Shown piece by piece: positions 4,181 to 40,926 of a stretch of 64,000 nt of DNA (within the stretch, counting starts at the first letter, position 1; each line of letters starts with the position of its first letter). The stretch is taken from contig NC_092675.1 in assembly GCF_964355755.1 (NCBI RefSeq), positions 22,484,412-22,548,411 of the forward strand, given 5' to 3'. The position numbers were made by a program, and so were the translations under genes. Under the pieces are notes generated by a model, which worked only from the letters and a program-made list of their open reading frames with translations, did not search any database and was not told the DNA's origin. Source of the DNA: Antedon mediterranea (taxonomy: Eukaryota > Echinodermata > Crinoidea > Comatulida > Antedonidae).

Positions 4181-6221
4181 TAGTATATTAGTATAGTATA
4201 GTACGGTATGTTATGACCAAAGGAACATTAACAGTAAGAACATACATACTACATGGTTAAATTCTTCCTGGACATTCATTCATTGATGGTAGGATAGTAA
4301 GAATACAACACTGTACTCATGTTTTTAAGAGGCCAGCAAAAAGTAGTAAAATAAATTATTAGTGTCACCTGATCTTCTTTACCGAATTCCTCAATTTTAA
4401 AAGATGACTAAGATGTGAGACCTACCCGTACTCTCACTCATCGACATAATACCATACCGAATTCATAAGAATAGTCACTGTGTATACGGCATTATTACAT
4501 AAATATATACATAACGCATTGTTTATATTTGCCAATTATAGTTAATTCCTTAGGCCTAATCACCATATTTATTGAGTATGACCTATCCACTGTCTGAGTA
4601 GAAACTAATAATTTAGAGCTCTCGGTAAAGATATACCGTTGTGACAAAGACATAGGCCTACAATTAGTTTTAGTAAGTTTTGTAAGTTTCATACTCATAA
4701 TGTCGTAATTAGGCCACAGAAAGAGTTTGAACACTTTCTGATATGGCAGGAAGTGGACTTTCTCACTTTGTAGGTAGATCATAAGTTGACTTTTAAAAAG
4801 TGAATGTGAGGGTGACTTACGGATTAAGGGGAAATTTGTTCCAGAATTGGTGCTCGAGGACAGAAAACGAACTGTAGTGGTAACGGTACCTGGTTTTTAT
4901 TAATGGAACCGCAAGTCAGTGAGTTTCCATGGCAGACCCGAGTCCACAAAATGGAAATAGAGCAGGTTAAAGTTACGCAATTTCAACCAAAAGTTAACAA
5001 ATTTGATGTTTTGCGGAAAATGGGCGGTGATTGGGAGAAAACAAAAACTTTCAGACGTCATATCTTTATTCTTTTTTTGTATTGGATTCCTTTTTTACCA
5101 CCTTTTTTCAGTTCGTTCGACTCGAATGCAGTTTTATTAGATAGTTTTTTTAAATATTAAACTCGCATTTTTCAAGATCTATAAAAATGAAGATTTGTAC
5201 TATTAGAAACCAAAAAAACATTATTACTGTGATGTTTTGAGATAAGAATTAAGTGTTATAAAATGATAAATAGATTATGAGTCAATTTAGTTATTTTTAT
5301 AGCTATAAACAGGTATTGTTTTTAGCGTTCCATCACGACTAAAAAGAATGAGTTGAGCATACGGGTCTTGTCATGTTACCGATAGTATCATTAATTTAAA
5401 CACACGATCAGAGAAAAAAAAATACAAGGCGGAATTTGTTTCTACTTTCAATCGTTGCCAGCGGCCAGATATAATTCCCGCGTTATTAGATCGATGCAAT
5501 TAATGTAATTGGGAAGCGATGCAAACAGATAATGATAGGCGACTTATTGAATAACGCATAATAGGACTATTAGTGATATTATTACTGAATTAGCTCTGAT
5601 ACTTAATTCAAGCTAACGCAACAATGTTGCGGCAAGATTCTTCTTCAGAAAGTGTGAACCGCCCTGTATGATCTATATACGCATGCGTACACGATCATGA
5701 AAGGAGAACGCATTCATAACAGTTTATGTTGGAAAATATCATTGACGCGAAAACAACAAAACATTGACAGTGACACTATACTAGCTCACACGAAGATTAG
5801 CGCGCACATTCAAGAACCGGTCATTTTATCCGCGATAGAACGCGCGCGTGTCAAATTTTGTATCTCTGTGGTATCCCCAATGCCAATTTTACTCATTTAT
5901 ATGGCTACTATACTTTGTACTCTGTCACCTATAAACCTAGTAGATAAATTAAACGTAATAACACTTAAACATAATAAAACATTAGGCGTGTAAATGAAGT
6001 GTTTTAAAAGACTAAAGTGAAACGGAAAACAAGACATCGATGCAGTTTTCAGTAAAATTAACTAAATGACTGGGCCTACATTTGATAATTGTTCTAATGA
6101 TTCTAATGTAATTATAGTGAGAATATAATGGAGGTAATAACAAGGTACAGTACATTTTAAATTACCCATAACCGGTAAACCTGCATTGATATTCTGTACA
6201 GCTAATATATATATATATAAT

Positions 6222-6266
6222 CTGCAGACAGTACTGTTTCGATCTTATTAGATCTCGTCAGTGCAG
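6222..6266 (-). ncRNA. Type I hammerhead ribozyme (minus strand)
   Basis: Read 5' to 3' on the minus strand, the parts in order are: stem I strand CTGCA, core CTGACGA, stem II GATCT/AGATC closed by an AATA loop, core GAAA, short stem III CAG/CTG around TA, cleavage triplet GTC, and stem I return strand TGCAG. Every invariant core element of the hammerhead family is present. All 45 nt are identical to the plus-strand copy at 36331-36375. Stem I can be prolonged through the flanking AT-rich sequence with one bulge. Predicted cleavage falls between plus positions 6226 and 6227. Hammerheads of this minimal type are known from Penelope-like elements and retrozymes in animals, so a retroelement origin is likely, but no reverse transcriptase is nearby. 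Confidence 0.85.
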
Positions 6267-8411
6267 ATATATCTATATATATATATATATTACTGTTAGT
6301 TTTAAAGAAAATTAATTCAGCGGTGCGAATGAGTTAAATTGCCATTGTGTGCTTGTTGAAATTCGTTCAATTGAATTCAATTCAATTCAATTTCTTTATT
6401 GCTGCAAATGCCATCAAGGGCTAATATTCGCTTAAACATACTACATCATACAAACATATACATATACACATTAAGAAATTGTTGTTATCATTAGTGAAAT
6501 AAGAACAGTGTGCCTGTATAAAATATGATAAAAATGGTACGCATTTGTACGTGACGCATGCGTATGACCAAGCACGGTAGTACTACCAGCGGAAATCTGA
6601 AATTACGTAATCTTTCTCTCTGGAATACAAACTAAAATGTTTAGGCTGAATTCTGTTATGCTATATGCAAAATATTTTAAATCATATGATGATGACAGCG
6701 CATGGTCCAATGTTGTTTTTTTATATGATTTTTTTTTTACTTTGTCTAGGCATAACCATAACTTAGCTATTTACCCTTTAAAATTGATTGAAATATAATG
6801 TAGGCCTACATAGATTCAATTTATGATGACGTTTTTTCCGACAGCTCCCCATCAATTTCCTCCAAATTATTGAGAAACACCGATTATTATAAACGCACCA
6901 TTGGTAATGTGGTTAGGGGTATGGATAATGAATTGAAACTACGCAGTATTTTGATAATTGCAAGTCAGTTCTCATCTGTAATAATCAGCAATGTGTTTCA
7001 ATTAGAGCCGAATTTTCTCACCTTCAGTCAGCGTGCTTATCCACCCGTGTTTACTTGCATTACGCACGCCTCGTTTCACGACCAGCCAAATTGAAAACGA
7101 ATTCTCAGAAGGGACTACAGCGCAGGTCATCATTATTTCGAAAGCTATGCTGCTTAAGCGAATACCATCTTACGCCCTACAAATTATATTCTCATTCGTT
7201 AATAGTCAACATTTGTTTTCGCACGGTTAAGCCAAATCGTCATATATTTTTGCATAATACAAATGCGATTATTGGAAAGTATAGAATATGAAATAATAGC
7301 CGAGATTAAATAGGAGAGATTTTTTAGCAACATTTAGATGAAATAAAGACGTATGAATAAAATATTGAACCATAAAATATTGTAATTATTAGTAGAAGTT
7401 CAATAGTTGGACTATTTTCAAGAAGATGAAACCTCTGTAATTTGATTAGAACCATTTTAATGAGCCATTAGTTATGCATTATTTAATAAGCTAATCCGAT
7501 TATCGAATATTATGCGACACAATCTGGTGAAGTGTTTTTGTGATGTAGTTCTTCTTCTACGTTCACGCGACTCACAGATCAAGATATCCATTCTACTGCT
7601 TCTTCAAATCATATATGGTGCGTTATAGATTTTTTTGTGTTATATCAATATTGCTCTGTGTGTTTTAATTAGTTAATTTCGTTGGTGGTGGACATGGGCC
7701 AGATTCAACTGGCCATACTAGTGGCGTTCACATCGAACTATGGCTAGTTAATAGTTAAGTTAATGTAACTAGATAGTGACAGTTGCTGAAATGAACCACT
7801 GTTGGAGAACCTTACTCCGACTGAACGATGTTGCGATTGAGGTGAAGACGCATTTTCATCCATCCGAGCAGTTAGAATCAAAGCCGGGACTAAATAAAAA
7901 TATCCGCTTTGGGCTCAAGCAAGGTGACATTTTATCAGGGATATTCACTCTTCCCTGTCTTATATAAAAGGATAGGCTGTTCAGAAGCAAGAACAATTTG
8001 CTGTATAGTGTCACCGACAAGAGCCTGTGTCAAGAGTAAGAATAATTACAGAGAACCGTCCAGCGGAATTCTTCCTGATAAACTAATCGAAGAAAGGATG
8101 AACACTTTTTAGTTATTATTATTATTTTCAATCATCTTTAAAAATGCACATTAAATTTGATAATGATGTAATAATTAAAATATACTTCTATAGAGAGCCT
8201 TCATTGTTGTTGAAAAATGTACTATTTAGTAAAGTACAGTTATACTGTATTGTAACTTAAGCCAGACGGCAGTCTATATAATAATACATTATATATCTAA
8301 AGGTACTGATAATGTTGCTAATGTTTGCTAAACATACTAACGTTTTTATGACTACTTTGTTGCTGACTTTACATTAATTAACTCATAAATGTATCTTTTA
8401 TTTTGTTTAAG

Positions 8412-11400: not shown

Positions 11401-14400
11401 CAATCACAAGACACGCGCTCTGTATGGTTTTCATCAGTCAGCGGGCGTCGGAATGTTTGTATTTTGTGTTTACTTTCGGAGTAAATTTATAATAATTTCC
11501 CGCAGCCCTCAAAATAGTGTCGCTCGATATTAATTCCTTCATTTATAAAACATGGTGTCCATAGAAATTATTAGTAGGCCTACAGTCAATTTTCCCAATG
11601 TCGGACATCATTGGCCTAATATTTGGTTTTCCATATGCTGATATTTTTTGAATTTGTTTTTATGGTGAAAGGTCTTTGGACATCTACAGAAAAAAATATT
11701 GTGTTTGGGTGTAGGGAGTACATGAGTACATTGCAAATATGTTTATTTTAGCACTGTTTTCAACTATATTAAAAATATCCATAGAAAATTAACGATGTCG
11801 TTTGAATAACATTGATTTTACAACCATTTAAAAAATAAGCTTAAAACACTTACTCGGACGTTTCAATCGCTATTAAAGTTAATTTGAATTTAAATCAAAT
11901 TAACGGCCACTTTCCCAATTGTATAAGTAAATTGAGGTTAATTGAGCATTTCTTACTAGGCTTAATTTGTCAATTAGTGTTTGTACGTTTGTTGTTTATT
12001 GCTTTAATTATTTAATTTATTTAATTATTAAGAGTTATTTAATTAAAATGGCCTTTACAGCATTGATAAAAAAACTTGTTTGTTTGGTTTTCCTTAAAGA
12101 TGCACACTGTAGGGCCTACATTCAACCTGTTACCACATTTCAGTGTTGAATTCTTCACTTTTTTTTAAACAGAAAAGATGCGGTACCTTCTAAATCTGGT
12201 GGTAAAAAAGAAGCATATTTTATGAATAATTAAAAAGTGTCAACTTTAAAAAAAAACAGGTCGAAACTAAGTTTTGGTTGATATAAAAGTTAAAGTATAC
12301 AGTAGCTATCAAAGAATTGGAAAAGAGGAGGACAATAGGTAACAAAATGTCGTCCCTTCCCACCATCATCCCCATCCTTAAATGATTCCCATAGGCTTAC
12401 AATTTTAGTATGATAATTCGTGTTTGATCTAACGACTAAAACGGTGATTGAAAGTGGATGAATAATAATTAGCAATGAATTTCAATTGAGACAAAAATAC
12501 AGATGTCAATTTGTCAATTGGCATCATTACAGGTATAACAATTGTTTAAATTTCTATTGTTTATTATAAAATATAAACATTTTCAACAAAATTGATAATA
12601 AATCCCCTTGTTTTCCGACAGCGGTGGAGCAGAACAAACGATGATTCCACTACCCCCCACCCCCCTTTTTTTAAAGTCTAAGAGAGGAAATTCACAAACA
12701 CTGACTATCATATAAATTTATTTATTATATACGTCAATCAATTTGAACAAATTTTACTAGTGAGACAAAAGAATGTGATGTGCCAATAATTATTTGGGAA
12801 TATCACCACCATATTTGGGTACATCACACTTTTTTTTGTCAAACTAGTTTGATAGTGTAGACAGAGCTTAAGGAAATATTATTTTTATTAAAATACCGCC
12901 GATTAACGATTGTAAGTCACGGACGATTCAGTATATTTTCGTTTCATAACAAATATATCGATTAAAACTATTTGTCCAGTGACTGGCAAAATTGAACTCG
13001 TCTTGCGTAAATTAAAACATGTTAACCCTATCCTTCCGAGTATGTAATCTCATTTTAACACTACAAACGTCTTCGTCACTTGAAAATTATAATTTTGTTA
13101 TCCGTCTGATCCAGTGCAATGCAGTATTTATGTTATTTCTCTTACACTTACACAAATTACATTAACTAATTTTCCTTACACAAACTCCGCTAAAGCTAGC
13201 GCCGAATGATAGATTAAATAACCGTACAAAATAATTGCGGAAATTCGATTAATTGTACAATTAGATGATTCCTATTAAAATAAGATTCAGGGTCCTACTA
13301 ACCAATGATAAAATGACAAATCTATTATCAACAGCAATTTGATTGAGAGAAATTTTAGTCACAAAATTGTATAAATAAATTAAGTTGTAATTCGATTACT
13401 TAATTAGTTTTACATTCGTATGTTGTTTTTAACGATAGCATTCATGTCGAAAATCCCACACAATGAATGCATTGCCATAATTACATAATTGTCTTCGTAT
13501 ACATTAAGACACACCCTAAATGATAATCGGAAATGTCGTCATTAAAAATTGTACAGCAGAAACATACAGTCAACGCTCGCGTATAAATACATCATCGCAT
13601 AAACACGCGTAGATGTGTGACATATTTTATGTACGTCATCATTATTAGTATGCGTACCGTTTCTTAATTCAAATATTGTCCTCCTTACAAAAATGGTCAA
13701 TTTACAAACAGACCAAAGTTGTATAATGTAACTAATAATATATCGGTGGATGAAATTGATTTCAATAATTAGTTGAAACATCGGAATGAAAATATAAATT
13801 GAATAATAGTGTACGCACTTACTAAAATGTAATTTCGTATGAATCTTTTGTTTGTATGTCACTCTTTTCTGTATTAGTTTTGTTTGGCCATGGATTGCTT
13901 ATAACTTAATTTCACGCACATCTAATTGATAATTATCGTATATATTACTTTGTGTGTACGGTCTAGTTATTCAGGAAAGTGACAATAGTCATCATGTTGT
14001 TACACCCCGCAAAAGAAATAAAATTACAGTGTCATCTCAGCAAGAACATTTAAATCGTCATCATATCATCGCTTTCGTCATAAATTACCGTTAACACCAA
14101 ATTTTCCACCTTCCTCATTGTCATCAATACCTTCGTCATAATTTCATCCCGTGTCTAACACAGTTGTCACCGCCGAAATACTCATTGTCACCAACATTAC
14201 ACTCATGCTGACTGCCACCGTCGCGATGGTCGTCATCACAAACCGTACTTGCCAATTGCCACCGACGACGGCATCACACTAATGCTGATTTCCACCGTCG
14301 TCATCACAAATCATATATGGCAATTGTCATAACCTTCGCCCTAATCACACTTATGCTTATTGCCACCATCGTCATCACAAACCATATATGGCAATTGTCA

Positions 14401-17400
14401 CCTTTGCCCTCATCACACGTATGCTTATTGCCACCATCGTCATCACAAACCATATATGGCAATTGTTACTTTTGCCCTCATCACACTTATGCTTATTGCC
14501 ACCGTCGTCATCACAAACCCTATATGGCAATTGTCACCTTTGTCCTCATCACACGTATGCTTATTGCCACCATCGTCATCACAAACCATATATGGCAATT
14601 GTCACCTTTGCCCTCAACACACGTATGATTATTGCCACAATCTTCATCACAAACCAAAAATGGCAATTGTCACCTTTGCCCTCATCACACGTATGCTTAT
14701 TGCCACCATCGTCATCACAAACCATATATGGCAATTGTCACCTTTGCCCTCATCACACGTATGCTTATTGCCACAATCTTCATCACAAACCAAAAATGGC
14801 AATTGTCACCTTTGCCCTCAACACACGTATGATTATTGCCGCAATCTTCATCACAAACCAAAAATGGCAATTGTCACCTTTGCCCTCATCACACTTATGC
14901 TTATTGCCACCGTCGTCATCACAAACCAGTATGCATGTGACAAAATGATTGCCGAGGTTATGGTCATCACATTCAAAGCGATTGCCACCGTCGTCTCACA
15001 AATGATACATGACAATTGACGTCATCCCCATTCATGATACTGATTGTCACCGTCGTCATTGTCACATATCAGACAGTTTTCACCGTCGTCATTACATTCA
15101 TCATTATTATTTTTGTCAATCAATGTTGTCATAATTTCCTTCATTTTTATAATCAGTAGCAGTATCTCGCTAGTAAACTTCCATTTGCGTCATAATCATT
15201 TTTTTTTAAATGCTACATTATTAATAATAAGTATCTCATCTCTAATCAATATCTTCAAAAGGTTAGATCTCATTACTTATATTTTATTTATTTATACAAA
15301 TTTTGCATTATAAAACATTAAAGCAGTTTCCATTTCAATTCTTACGTAATAACGAACTATAATATCAATAAACATATGTATTTATAAATAGAGTAAGCAA
15401 TTAAGAGATATTATGTTTATTTCGGTTTAATCAATTTGTTGAAAGTTATATTGCATTTAAATTAAATTAAATATGTAATTTTATTCTTCCCTTCTTCGTT
15501 TTTTCTTCTAAATATTACATTATTTGAATGTTTTTCATGTTAATTCACTATAATTAAAGCAGGAACAAAACCATAATTAAATTATATGTATAATCATGTA
15601 CAACTGTGTAAATTTGAAATAATAAAACCAAGACACGTGTGTAATTTCTTACAATTTGTCTAAAACATTAAAAACAAAATTAAACTATTAACAAACAATT
15701 ATGGCGTAAAATTCGTCAAGGACTGATTTAAAATATTGATATGGATTTTTCTGCGCGCTCGTGTTTTATGTAAAAGACAATGATAGGTGAGCATTTCTCT
15801 ATGCCTAATATTGGCATCCAATTTCCAAACGGACGAGCGATTTTCGCTGTGTAAATACAGATTCTACGTAGGCCAAGCTACGCGGGTTTCCGCTTAACGT
15901 CGGCTCGCCTGTGTAAATTGACTTTTAAGGTGACTCTCGCGCGTACAAAAGCCGTTGAATTATCTGAGAACATATGCATTATACGGTTATTATTTTATTG
16001 TTGTTTTAGGCCTATGTCAACATAATTATTTTAAAAAAAAGTTTCATGCATTGTTTTTTAATTATGGTTCATATAATTGTGTTATTACTTTTGTTTTATC
16101 ATACAGACGTAATAGGAATATTAAAGTTATCACGAACAGTGTAAACAAAACCTATAAAATATAGTTCTCCGAGCAACGATTGCAATTTATTTGGAAACCG
16201 CATCGTGTTGTGACAGGTGTAAATAGCGAACAACAGAACATAATGATGTGTAATTTGTACTATATGATAATGTGACAAACGGTCGGTACTGCTGAACACA
16301 ACAATAGAACCGCCAGTTAACTTTCAACTAATTAAAGATAATGAACCGGCGAATAAAAGTAAACCATAAAAATAAGTTCAGACTTAATTTAAGATAAGTA
16401 GAATGAAATAATGATATCAAAATTCAATAATAAAAACAAAATACCAAACGGCGGCAGGTGAATAATTAAATACAATAATTATACAAAAAAAAAGTATCTT
16501 TGTGATTATGATAATTAAATGTATTTTTAATAGTAGTCTCTACTAAAATATCATTAAGTAAAGTTAAAAGTATAATCAACGAAACAGCTTTTATATCCAT
16601 TACAAAATAAATAAAAGTCTATGTATCACCAATGTTTTTTCTAAAACTGTTGTCTCATAAAACAGTTCGATATTGGAACTTTGAAAATAATTCTTTTTAT
16701 TATATAGCCCATAAAATTATGTATTTTGTTAAGTCAACTTTTACATTTTACATCCAGACGGACGCATCATAATATGATGAGTGCAACGCCTAATAGGAAT
16801 GAGGCTTTGGAAACTAACTAAATACGATAAAAGTTACGTAAAATTTAAAAGATACAAAGTTTTAATAACATTTACCCTGTGTTAATATACAAACAAAGTA
16901 GGCCTACTACTTTATTGAGTAAAATAATAATAATAATCTATTTTAGTGGTAGGTAAAATAGTAGTACATATTAAAGTTCAATGATTTCTTTAAAACCCGG
17001 TGTGATAGAAGTGAATATTCAGTTTGAGAATCTGTAGAAGCATAAGGTGAAATTATTTTAAACTGCATCATCTGATCCCGTACCACATTCTCTTTTTATT
17101 TTCCAAATCGGCAACCTTCAAAGGCCAATCAGAATGTCCTAATTTTACTAACTGAAACGCTCACAAATTACTATATTACGAATCATATCATATCCACGAT
17201 GTTTTAATAAGACATTTCGACAATTTTACATCGCCGTGGGCATGATCTCAATAGTTTCGACCTACTTCCAATAATAGTATTTTCATTTATTATATCTAGC
17301 CTTGTCAAAGTAACTCGATCTTTCTCCAAATAAATGATGGAATTAGAATTGCCGATCATAAATACTGTACCTAATTGACAAAGTAGTTGATTTCTACGCA

Positions 17401-27531: not shown

Positions 27532-27604
27532 GATCAGTTAGCTCAGTCGTCTGAGCGTCGTGTTAACAACACGTATGTCGTGGGTTCGATTCCCACGCTG
27601 GTCG
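27532..27604 (+). tRNA. tRNA-like gene, anticodon AAC (Val); possible SINE head
   Basis: All four arms form in 73 nt: acceptor GATCAGT/GCTGGTC pairing at all seven positions with G-T wobbles, D arm GCTC/GAGC, anticodon stem CGTG/CACG around loop TTAACAA with anticodon AAC, and T arm GTGGG-TTCGATT-CCCAC. The outermost anticodon-stem pair is T-T. The duplicated copy at 29233-29285 has lost exactly 20 nt including the anticodon. The sequence is followed by a repeated body, so this may be the tRNA-derived head of a SINE rather than a working tRNA-Val gene. Confidence 0.6.
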
Positions 27605-35800: not shown

Positions 35801-36330
35801 GTTGATTAACACCCAATTAATAGCCATAGGCTAAATTGCAAATTCCAATGAATCCAATATAAAATCTTGCATTTTATACATAACATAGGAATACGTTTAA
35901 ATCTTTCATAACAAACAAATAGTAGCATATAAACAGCAGGTTTTTAGGCTTGTTCTTGTTCAGTTATTTAACTGGGTAGGTTAACGATATCTGTGAACGA
36001 TATCTGTGCCATGATGAAACCAACTCACCTGGGTAATAACTAAACCAGAATGAGCCCCTAGACAACTGGATAAGTTATCGATAAAGTTCATCTGCAGATT
36101 GGATATTACGCTCCTCTACTATCTGCTATATACAATAGTATGTTGTTTTGTAGAGCACTCTTCAGTTCGAAACGGTGCATTTTTGTTGTGAATACTATTA
36201 GCATTTTGCAAAGCACGCTCGTTGAGCTTGTGCACTCTTTGTGTTCATAATCAGTGTACCATGTCCCGCATACCTGGCTCAGCCTATATATTGTGCCAGT
36301 TCTGCGGTACATTTCATTTCGAAATCTGAG

Positions 36331-36375
36331 CTGCACTGACGAGATCTAATAAGATCGAAACAGTACTGTCTGCAG
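36331..36375 (+). ncRNA. Type I hammerhead ribozyme (plus strand)
   Basis: Stem I CTGCA (36331-36335) pairs with TGCAG (36371-36375). The core CTGACGA (36336-36342) is followed by stem II GATCT/AGATC (36343-36347 and 36352-36356) with loop AATA, core GAAA (36357-36360), stem III CAG/CTG (36361-36363 and 36366-36368), and cleavage triplet GTC ending at 36370. Stem I extends seven more pairs outward into flanking sequence (36324-36330 with 36376-36382, including G-T wobbles), which supports a real fold. It is identical to the minus-strand copy at 6222-6266. No protein-coding retroelement is adjacent. Activity is predicted, not shown. Confidence 0.88.
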
Positions 36376-37511
36376 TTTGGATATATATAATATAGGTAAT
36401 TATAATTATAATAGTAATATATAATTCACAAAACAATTGTCTTTAATTGAGGTGTCTATTATAAATACAGTATAAAGGTTTAACTTTGATGAAATTATTG
36501 TTATGAAATGTAATTATTTTAGGCTAAAATCTTTCATATTTTGTGTATTTTTTCTTTTTAAGCCTTATTCATGTTGTTCATACTGCTATTTAAAAAAGTC
36601 TCTTTTTAACTTCATCGCGAAAGGTTTCTGGAAGTTTTAGACCAGTCTTTCTGTCTAGGAGAACATAAAATAATACAGTATATATAAAACATTATCCAAG
36701 TCGATCAAATGTCTAGGTAAAAAAAACTTTTGCATTTTATACAATATTTATTACACATTAAAAAAGTGATGTATTTTTATGATCAGAAATTAGATAAAAA
36801 TTCAATGAATTGGGTATTTGCAATATTATTTATATTAAAATTGATTATAAATGGAATATTTTGTAGTACAGTATTCATACTAAAATTTGATGAAAATTAT
36901 TTGATGAAATTGTTATACATGTATTGACTTTGTTTTGCACAGTACTTGTAATTAAAATAATGTGATTGTAATTGGGATGTTTGACTTTTTACTCTTTAAA
37001 TGTGGTGAGTACAGGAGCATGACATTGCGCGAGGAAGATACATTTTACAATTGTTATCTTATGATACTATTTAGCTACTAGAATAAATTGTTATTAAATA
37101 AAATTAAAATACAAATTGAAAATACTGGTTTCGGCTCTAAGAATGTGTATTTCTAACAGGCACTTACGGCGCGCCATACATAATTATTTGGCAAACCGGC
37201 CCTCAACGTGCAAGAAGAGTCGTGTTTGTTGTGTATGATGATGTATGTCGCGCGCGGGGATTCAGCGACGATTTAAACTAAAATGTAGGCCTAGCCGGAG
37301 AAGGAAGTCACAAGTGTATATTGTTTTTTATAATTATACAGGTAAACCGCTAGACATAATTATGAGGGATAAAAGCGTAAGTGATCAAAATGAAATAATG
37401 GTTTATTAAACTTGTAATCTATTATATTTTAGGGGCTAGGCCTAGCTAGAGTAGGCCTACTACTACAGACACTAGTTAGGCCTAGCCCTACCTACTAGGG
37501 ATGCTAGTCAA

Positions 37512-37735
37512 GTCGCCCCATCGCAAAGTCGCCCCATCGCAAAGTCGCCCCATACAAAGTCGCCCCATACACAGTCGCCCCATCGCAAAGTCGCCCCAAA
37601 ACAAAGTCGCCCTGACACAGTCGCCCCATTGCAAAGTCGCTCCATCGCAAAGTCGCCCCAACGCAAAGTCGCCCCATCGCAAAGTCGCCCCAACACAAAG
37701 TCGCCCCATCGCAAAGTCGCCCCAAAACGTTAAAA
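37512..37735 (+). repeat. 16-bp tandem array, left (about 14 copies)
   Basis: Unit GTCGCCCCATCGCAAA with variants at the ATCGC part (ATAC, AACGC, AAAAC). Spacing is 14-16 bp. The unit lacks stops in several frames, which produces spurious ORFs on both strands. Confidence 0.92.
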
Positions 37736-40700
37736 AATAGTTTAAAAGTGCGTAAAATGTCGCAATGATAAACAAAATAACACGGAACGTGTAGGCATAA
37801 AAGGGGAAGCCCCGCCATGTAGTCTCAGGTCACACGATCGGCACGCTCTCCAATCATCAGAGAGGAAGCCCCCAACTAATCACTCCGCGGTCGCACTAAC
37901 GTGCTAGCTCTCACCATGGATTAAAGAATAGAAGGATATGCATCGACGGTGACATCAAACGATTTTACAACGCGCTTGCCTATACTAAAGCACTGCTGCC
38001 AATCAAACAAACACGTTCATTGAACTCCGTGTCTCTAACCGCGGCCCTCTGTAAAACGCTGCGAATCAACTGTTACATTTTTTGAGACCAAAACGTAACC
38101 ATGTAGAAATCGTATGCGCAGTCTGAATGTTCTATTGACATGTCTGCGTCGATGATTAATTGATAACAAACATATATTGCTGAATAATTCTGTTTTAGTT
38201 TCATCACAATCGGACTACGAAAAGTTCACTTTCTTACGACTGGTAATTTTAGGTAGTTGGTAATATTAATAAAATATGCCATTTTTATATTTGAATTATC
38301 ATTATTTGCCTGCCATCTTCTGTCATTAAAAATTGCGTTAATCTATAGAATATTAAATTATGCATTTGACCATGTATGTTGTTAGCGTGGCCGGTGTTCA
38401 GACATACAACAATCGTGTTTTTTAATATATGGCTAAGCAGTGGTTTCTTCATAAATCTCCTTAATTATCGATGTGATTATATTTAAACTGTAGTGCCTGG
38501 TGATTGGCTAGTGGTTATGTCATCCACATCACATCCAATCACCGGGCCTAATTGAATGAAAACAGCGATCCCTGATCCGGGATTGGCTGGCTATGTATAG
38601 TTGCGATTCGTTACCTAGCGGTCGTTTTGAAAAGTACACGCAGGGCAAACTTGATCACGAACAAACGAAGTAGGCCTACCTATTATTATTATTCACACAA
38701 GAAGTAAGACAACGGTGAGTATTTAAGATTAGCCTAGGCCTACCTAGGCAGTATCAATGTCGGCAAATCATAGGGTTTACTAGCCCAGTTTAGCCTAGTT
38801 AGTACAAGGCCTGGGCCTAGCTAGGCTAGCATTCTTGCTGATTTTGTAATTTTACAACAAATGAGACAACTAATAGTTATTGTCTCAGATGTAGGGCTAC
38901 TACAGGTCATAAAATGCTACTTTAATCATCATAAAAAAATCATTAGCGTAGATCAATCGCGGCAGAAACCAACATAGTCAATAGTTGACCATCTACAAAC
39001 ATCATGCCACCAAAGAACGCGCGAAAGAAGCGTAGTAGCCAACAAGGTTAAATGTCGTTGCACATGTGCAGTAAACAATATATTAGGCACGCGACCGTTT
39101 CGTTGTTACCATGCGGTTAATTAAACTGTAACATTGTGGGCGGTCCGCGGTCTGTCGGCGAGAGTCAAGGAACCCTTGATCTCACGTCGATGCATATCCT
39201 TCTATTCTTTAATCCATGCTCTCACCAGAGAGAAACCCCCGTAATTACTCCGCCGTTGTCGCACTACAACGCACCATCTGAAGATGGGGAAACCCCGTCG
39301 GAGTTTTACGATGATATCAGTCGCGTTCGAAATCGGTGGCGTTTAATTTTGGTCGCGATAAAATGATGTTATACGATCTAGATTATTTTTACTTTGGTCG
39401 ATGAATATTTATTATTATTAGGCCTATATTAATAATTGATTTTTGTTTTTATTTTACACTGAGGTCTATGATGAGAGAAAGATGTGTGCCTTAAAAATGA
39501 CAATTTGTAAACATAGTTTAAGATTATAGTATAAAGCCTATTATTCAGCATAATGTCATTTAACAGTACATAAATTTAAATGTGAAATATTTTATAGGGA
39601 ACGTAGGCTACGTCTGTGTCTTTTATTTTTTGTATGCAACAAATTAGGTAAAACAATTTATTTATAAACATTCAGTTTACTATTATATACATAGTATTAC
39701 AATGAACATTGATTATAAGCCTGGAAATGCAATCTCATCATTATATCCATTATAAAATTGCATCATATCGCCACTATTATTATGTCGTAAATGATGACGT
39801 GCATGTGTGTATTCGTCGTACGTCCGTGTACGTATTATTCCGTGCCTCTTCACTGCACTGTCTTGTTTATTAAAATTAAATAAACACCCGATATGAGGAT
39901 ATTTATTAGGCATGATAATTAGAATGTTCTATAACCAAAAGGGTTGAAAAGAATTTCTTCAGTAAAATGATCATTCTGCTGTTGAATAAAAAGCGACTCG
40001 CAATCTGAAACATTCTCTGAAACCAATCGGAGCTGCTCCTTCTGGTATCTGTTTCCTTCTCACAGCTGCTACGTCTTTCTGCTGCCCGTCGGGGATTCCC
40101 CTTTTTAAAAAACACGCACACGATAATCATACTGTACGATGGTTTTTCCATGGTCAAAATGTAGCGTTTTAATTTTACTAAAATACCTGCATGTGTAAAA
40201 CGATCATATCGGCGAAGAAATCCCCTTTTTTTTATTTCTTCATTTTGAAAAGTCATAATTAAAATTAAATAACTATAGACACATAACTTGTCAATAAATG
40301 CAAAATGATCAATAAGTAGCCTATATAACATTTATTGTCTTACAACGCTGTTATTGTTTTAACTACTGTAAATATACGAAGGCCTACTATTTATACACTT
40401 ATTATATTATCCTAAAAAATTAGCTGGTATCCACGCGTAGGTTGAAGAAAGATTCGTAATTGTGGCTCTGGTAACTAATTTTAAAATCATATTAAATTAA
40501 CATTTTCGAAACTATAAATCAGGGATAATCTTTTCGAAATCTTTTTAGAACTTTCAAACAAGGGACTATTTTTTAATGATTTTTAAAAAGCACATCACTC
40601 CATTAAAACCTGTAAAATAAAAATTAAAACAAAAATTATGTATATAATAGGATAAACATTATAATGTATACGACATTTAGCGCGACCAAAGTAACAACGC

Positions 40701-40774: not shown

Positions 40775-40926
40775 TGGGCGACTTTGCGATGGGGCGACTT
40801 TGCGTTGGGGCGACTTTGCGATGGGGCGACTTTGCGATGGGGCGAGTTTGTAATGGGGCGACTTTGCGATGGGGCGACTTTGTATTGGGCGACTTTGTAT
40901 GGGGCGACTTTGCGATGGGGCGACTT
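40775..40926 (-). repeat. 16-bp tandem array, right (about 10 copies, inverted)
   Basis: The same unit as 37512-37735 in opposite orientation: GGGGCGACTTTGCGAT repeated, with TTTGTAT and TTTGCGTT variants. It ends GGGGCGACTTGACTGGATCC. Confidence 0.92.

Follow-up and report, generated by a model that had tools for sequence, protein, structure and literature searches.

A hammerhead ribozyme of Antedon mediterranea very probably processes a non-coding retrozyme whose copies share a fixed 3′ end in TA-rich DNA

Results

A type I hammerhead and its recurrence in the genome

The window, the whole stretch of 64,000 nucleotides analysed here, contains on its plus strand the sequence CTGCA-CTGACGA-GATCTAATAAGATC-GAAA-CAGTACTGTC-TGCAG, a complete type I hammerhead core. 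Its elements are as follows.

36331-36375, plus strand: type I hammerhead (sequence; RF02275, 30.9 bits; motif scanner)
36331-36335/36371-36375, plus strand: stem I, CTGCA/TGCAG; if extended, 12 pairs, 36324-36335/36371-36382
36343-36347/36352-36356, plus strand: stem II, GATC(T)/(A)GATC, 4-5 bp
36357-36360, plus strand: core GAAA
36360-36362/36367-36369, plus strand: stem III, 3 bp closed by a GUAC tetraloop; the stem ends in the GTC cleavage triplet
36360-36369, plus strand: perfect palindrome ACAGUACUGU forming stem III (sequence); conserved in relatives about as well as the body
C36370/U36371, plus strand: predicted cut site (sequence)

Stem III is limited to three pairs because a fourth would leave an impossible loop of 2 nt. 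As its strand is a perfect palindrome, two molecules could pair as a dimeric ribozyme and cleavage as a dimer is possible. Such cleavage has been reported for amphibian hammerheads (PMC7229834).

The best-scoring covariance model is RF02275 (Hammerhead_HH9), which shares the layout of the core and stem I and gives E-values of 5.9e-6 (401 bases searched) and 9.4e-4 (whole window). The match at 36331-36375 and that of a second copy (30.9 and 33.6 bits) lie below the gathering score of 52 bits and are seen at relaxed thresholds only, so the motif is not a member by Rfam's rule. At gathering thresholds, Rfam reports nothing but one tRNA in the whole window; at relaxed thresholds, the hammerhead is the sole RNA gene found in the surrounding unit. 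A whole-genome search with RF00163 gave no match at E≤0.001 in Antedon or in any control genome and so carries no information. For the consensus as for the window sequence, the plain minimum-energy structure pairs the core CUG with stem III instead of forming the hammerhead fold.

The covariance score by itself would not decide whether the hammerhead is real. Within the window, a motif scanner detected 36331-36375, the second copy and a single weak candidate; in 684 kb of reversed control sequence (both strands) it gave one match. The 35-nt core occurs in 216 copies with up to 3 mismatches in the 354-Mb genome, while the reversed-pattern control gave none, and this recurrence establishes the hammerhead as real. 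The complete plus-strand type I hammerhead described in an earlier note on this DNA is therefore upheld by its intact core, its RF02275 match and its genomic copies. The note had named a low covariance score and a lack of further copies as grounds for rejection; the score is low in the formal sense of lying below the gathering value, but further copies are clearly present.

Stem I of the window copy differs from the family consensus

The 12-pair stem I, which the earlier note had also pointed out, is present in the window copy (fold z −3.0). It is peculiar to this copy, since two substitutions relative to the family consensus create it (TCTGAGCTGCA...TGCAGTTTGG in place of CCTGAGCTGCA...TGCAGATTGG). 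In the consensus, stem I is interrupted after 5 bp, where CCTGAG faces ATTGG. Canonical type I hammerheads have an interrupted stem I and require loop contacts there. In type I hammerheads, this position serves for the tertiary contact with loop II (PMC7229834, Figure 1 legend). With this site closed by the two substitutions, the window copy may be a poorer ribozyme than its relatives.

The hammerhead lies in a repeated unit of about 280 nt

A comparison of the 301 bases around the motif with the genome yielded 40 copies scored among 329 candidates, mostly 91-98% identical. Nearly all of these best 40 share an end point just beyond the ribozyme. The units mostly measure 275-287 nt (about 280) and also occur as head-to-tail repeats, with mostly seamless joins. 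Among 105 collected copies, 11 hold two or three hammerheads and 15 are longer than one unit, while most, including the window copy, comprise one unit or less. Internally deleted units of 167-179 nt are present in copies L017 and L018. All copy counts are minimum values. Base-by-base inspection covered roughly half of the ribozyme copies, which were picked by intact core or long similarity, and the reference unit, drawn from observed copies, approximates the consensus only.

The unit has a GC content of 41%. It is non-coding, with no open reading frame of at least 110 amino acids overlapping 36070-36384. No long flanking repeats or LTRs were found around the window copy, and no primer-binding site was apparent in the unit by eye. 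Folded as a circle, the unit is more stable than 100 of 100 shuffled sequences (z −3.9), with 63% of bases paired compared to 60% in the shuffles. Divergence between units of the same element was compared to tell rolling-circle copying from array transcription; there are hardly any shared derived changes, too few to separate the two, the exception being a recent duplication in copy L017. A Pol III promoter for the unit was considered and dropped, as the T runs of the unit would terminate transcription.

These properties make it very probable that an animal retrozyme of about 280 nt, non-coding and non-autonomous, carries the hammerhead and uses it as its processing ribozyme. Elements of this kind spread via small self-cutting RNAs that probably also close into circles. 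The family is new. It is not an undescribed kind of element, since the class, the metazoan non-LTR retrozymes, was described in 2020 (PMC7229834). The earlier note had recognised no retrozyme at the site and suggested an undescribed non-autonomous carrier. The non-autonomous carrier is confirmed in the form of about 290 bp around the motif, which correspond to a retrozyme unit with many relatives genome-wide, some of them tandem; the other two points do not hold.

The copies of the window are as follows.

36093-36384, plus strand: probable retrozyme copy, non-coding; a full unit beginning with the first base behind an equivalent cut site, and a further 14 nt beyond its own cut (97.6% identity to the unit over 295 nt; relatives genome-wide)
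36070-36092, plus strand: degenerate sequence, probably left over from the 3′ half of a preceding hammerhead (alignment against random 23-mers; BLAST)
36379-36384, plus strand: GGATAT, fixed 3′ end of insertions and putative start of reverse transcription, 14 nt past the cut (family-wide end, see below)
36385-36394, plus strand: TA-rich target DNA after the element (sequence; family-wide enrichment of TA runs)
6213-6266, minus strand: second family copy, hammerhead only (0.19 unit), within a (TA)n run (RF02275, 33.6 bits; 96.3% identity to the unit over 54 nt; sequence)

Just 5 of 5000 random 23-mers from the window align as well as the remnant at 36070-36092. BLAST alignments of the window copy extend to 36070 or 36077, leaving the 5′ boundary of the insertion uncertain. 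The window copy alone among the 105 may have its 5′ junction within 5 nt of a cut site, an ambiguous assignment. It shows no target-site duplication. Its body diverges from the consensus by 0.6%, and the median of copies selected by their body is 1.7%; this low divergence indicates a young family. In the second copy, the predicted cut falls between 6227 and 6226 on the minus strand, and the RF02275 match covers 6205-6278 (minus strand).

Insertions share one 3′ end and lie in TA-rich DNA

The end TGCAGATTGGATAT (up to 3 substitutions) directly follows the ribozyme in 97 of the 105 distinct copies. Of these, 93 terminate at an identical base, 14 nt beyond the cut, and in the remaining 4 the unit runs on. 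Genome-wide pattern counts gave 167 ends leading from the ribozyme into (AT)n and 34 joins from the ribozyme into a next unit. In 65/93 copies the terminal ATAT opens an alternating TA run of 6 or more, compared to 9/93 at a control position. As ATAT itself supplies 4 of the 6, runs of at least 8 give a stricter count (57/93). The 5′ flank carries a TA run of at least 4 in 40/93 copies and in 10/93 at the control position. The 5′ ends are scattered, at 0.17 to 2.9 units, where the lower bound is set by the ribozyme core required for copy selection.

Clear target-site duplications were seen in only 9 of 97 copies, with 4.7 expected by chance, and (TA)n targets hide them. Neither copy L105 nor copy L074 lies in a plain TA repeat; both have a readable duplication and carry no added TA, which suggests that the TA runs are probably mainly target, with slippage as the alternative. 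Copy L073 sits in the (TA)n centre of a palindrome, and copy L107 has similar palindromic flanks. The copies point with unusual clarity to one start position and a TA-repeat target for the return into DNA. In PMC7229834 and PMC7761336 we found no description of one constant 3′ end lying 14 nt beyond the cut in TA-rich DNA.

The insertion template would be continuous across the cut site

Copying appears to start 14 nt 3′ of the cut, and insertions continue back through it. An open RNA cleaved at this site therefore cannot be the template. Judged from the junctions, the template must be continuous across the cut site, either religated into a circle or never cut, and the TA-rich target DNA is probably the primer.

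The 5′ ends include a cluster at one full turn of the unit (6 of 20 ends at risk, compared to a pooled rate of 5.2% per 8 nt; P 4e-4). In the set selected by body similarity, 8 of the best 40 copies begin there, at query 61-66. The one-turn point holds ATAT, and a second TA-rich point (query 90-91) also collects starts. The cluster favours circles but is suggestive only, since TA microhomology may also explain it; as proof of circles it was discarded for this confounding. The copies examined show no start at any other AUAU of the unit, so that something beyond annealing to TA-repeat DNA would have to decide the start.

The ribozyme sequence, copy number, tandem units, fixed 3′ end, scattered 5′ ends, TA-rich target and continuity across the cut site are all observed in the copies. 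In the cycle that we infer around them, tandem copies would be transcribed and the hammerheads would cut the RNA at GUC^UGCAG, releasing units with 5′-OH and cyclic-phosphate ends. A host ligase could close these units into circles. The reverse transcriptase of another element might then nick TA-rich DNA and anneal its ...ATAT end to GGAUAU, 14 nt 3′ of the ligated cut. Copying would run backwards through the ribozyme and round the unit, mostly falling off early to give 5′ truncation and at times passing one turn. We tentatively suggest that the junctions record such target-primed reverse transcription on closed circular RNA, with a single AUAU as start 14 nt beyond the ligated cut, nicked TA-repeat DNA as primer, a frequent stop after exactly one turn, an occasional second turn and an enzyme other than the Penelope-like elements (PLEs) sampled here.

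It is also quite possible, if far from certain, that the same element inserts from an uncleaved multimeric transcript and that ribozyme cleavage is unneeded for insertion. On unprocessed RNA, a Penelope-like enzyme in purified form initiates at an internal site downstream of its hammerhead, and mutants of the ribozyme insert just as well (PMC11167929). Continuity across the cut site fits a linear multimer as well as a circle. The one-turn cluster, however, is not predicted by a linear multimer, although here the ATAT/TA microhomology alternative applies.

Sampled Penelope-like elements are not supported as the source of the enzyme

PLEs are published candidates for the mobilisation of animal retrozymes (PMC7229834, PMC7761336). 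According to a review by the authors of PMC7229834, the repeats of animal retrozymes carry no conserved motif pointing to an autonomous partner (PMC7761336). PLEs are present in the Antedon genome, with a reverse transcriptase (RT) plus GIY-YIG open reading frame and about 90 related places. Two families, A and B, have fixed 3′ ends as read by eye, one of them with an alternative tail extension, which is typical of PLEs. Their flanks are AT-rich, not (TA)n. The PLE flanks sampled, among them two complete intervals separating tandem copies, yielded no hammerhead, and the unit shows no similarity to the sampled PLEs except for one 17-nt match at chance level. As the flanks are not (TA)n and those sampled yielded no hammerhead, families A and B, though conceivable, are not supported as mobiliser, and another element may serve.

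PLEs elsewhere carry type I hammerheads, and with RT and GIY-YIG elements present in this genome the motif could be a pseudo-LTR fragment of a PLE. This is very unlikely: the unit (281 nt) contains no RT or GIY-YIG coding sequence, is self-contained and forms tandems by itself, and its hammerhead has a stem III, absent from the minimal PLE motifs. The lack of similarity to the sampled PLEs beyond chance and of hammerheads in the sampled flanks also argues against it.

A third PLE-like family (L066 1-2058 and L122 1-482) has GIY-YIG and an RT 30% identical to that of L063. It bears exact inverted terminal repeats of 170 bp and is found at many sites genome-wide, some of which have 857-amino-acid open frames. 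Inverted ends are unusual on a PLE-like element.

Accidental resemblance and domestication

The dispersed copies with short arrays and the covariance score under the Rfam threshold would also suit an ordinary short interspersed repeat or satellite whose hammerhead look is accidental and inactive. We consider this highly improbable, as against it stand a family consensus with full core and stems, seamless units, a fixed 3′ end adjoining the ribozyme and the lack of any other RNA gene in the unit in the relaxed Rfam search.

A domesticated ribozyme with a host function at 36331-36375, raised in the earlier note and compatible with the intact core, can be set aside almost entirely, because the site is one of at least 216 dispersed copies of a young family in which the core decays as fast as the body (2.9% and 2.1% divergence from consensus in 35 copies picked by body similarity). 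The intact core of the window copy is explained by its youth. Among core sites, mutations are most frequent at the second G of CTGACGA, which lies within a CpG, and the substitutions give no sign of selection on individual ribozymes.

Other repeats

Two exact 34-bp inverted arms (CATGGATTAAAGAATAGAAGGATATGCATCGACG) lie 1.2 kb apart at 37915-39218. Their inner 31 bases occur 263 times in the genome (up to 2 mismatches) and not at all in the control, very often in inverted pairs spaced by 1.24-1.46 kb; the family is perhaps a non-autonomous DNA transposon. The element is enclosed by a 16-bp minisatellite, AAGTCGCCCCATCGCA, at 37510-37728 and 40776-40926, in reverse complement on the other side. 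A 68-bp tandem array at 14230-14928 (10 copies, 89% matches) is open in more than one reading frame. Positions 27532-27604 hold a tRNA gene or tRNA-derived repeat (50.4 bits, Rfam; anticodon AAC by eye). A tRNA-like repeat (GTGGTCTAATGGTTAGGACATCTGCATATCAA...) at L067 355-426 and 40-109, probably a tRNA-derived SINE, also adjoins retrozyme copies L022, L093 and L095.

Discussion

Circular RNAs have been published for metazoan non-LTR retrozymes of coral, mussel and axolotl (PMC7229834). The Antedon family shares with them a type I hammerhead with short stem III in each unit, non-coding head-to-tail units (170-400 nt in PMC7229834 and about 150-450 bp as limits of the class, mostly 275-287 nt here), a GC content below 45-50%, the absence of LTRs and the presence of PLEs in the same genome. 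Their target-site duplications exceed 4 bp when present; here they are clear in a few copies, close to chance overall and masked by (TA)n. Their unit RNA is highly self-paired; the circular Antedon fold is more stable than its shuffles and close to them in the fraction of paired bases. They form long arrays, in contrast to the mostly single or 5′-truncated copies here, with their single fixed 3′ end in TA-rich DNA. Self-cleavage and linear and circular RNA are further features of the class and would be predicted for the Antedon family.

PAc-type PLEs with minimal hammerheads (PMC11167929) likewise start inside the RNA, downstream of the hammerhead, leave the cut site intact in the copy, use AT-rich targets and form tandem copies. 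The Antedon unit differs from them in lacking a protein, in its stem III and in its TA-repeat target. The sampled Antedon PLEs differ from the retrozyme in having another 3′ end and no hammerhead. Plant LTR retrozymes (PMC4918200) are also non-autonomous, hammerhead-bounded units thought to move via circular RNA, but they have type III hammerheads, LTRs, units of 600-800 nt and tRNA primer sites.

How animal retrozymes return to DNA, and via which enzyme, is the question that this family addresses. It is young and mostly single-copy, with a shared 3′ end and recognisable TA targets, which makes both the start site and the target testable and offers a way to ask whether circles serve as template. 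If the circular-template reading is true, the junctions would be genomic evidence for a step so far only postulated in the retrozyme model.
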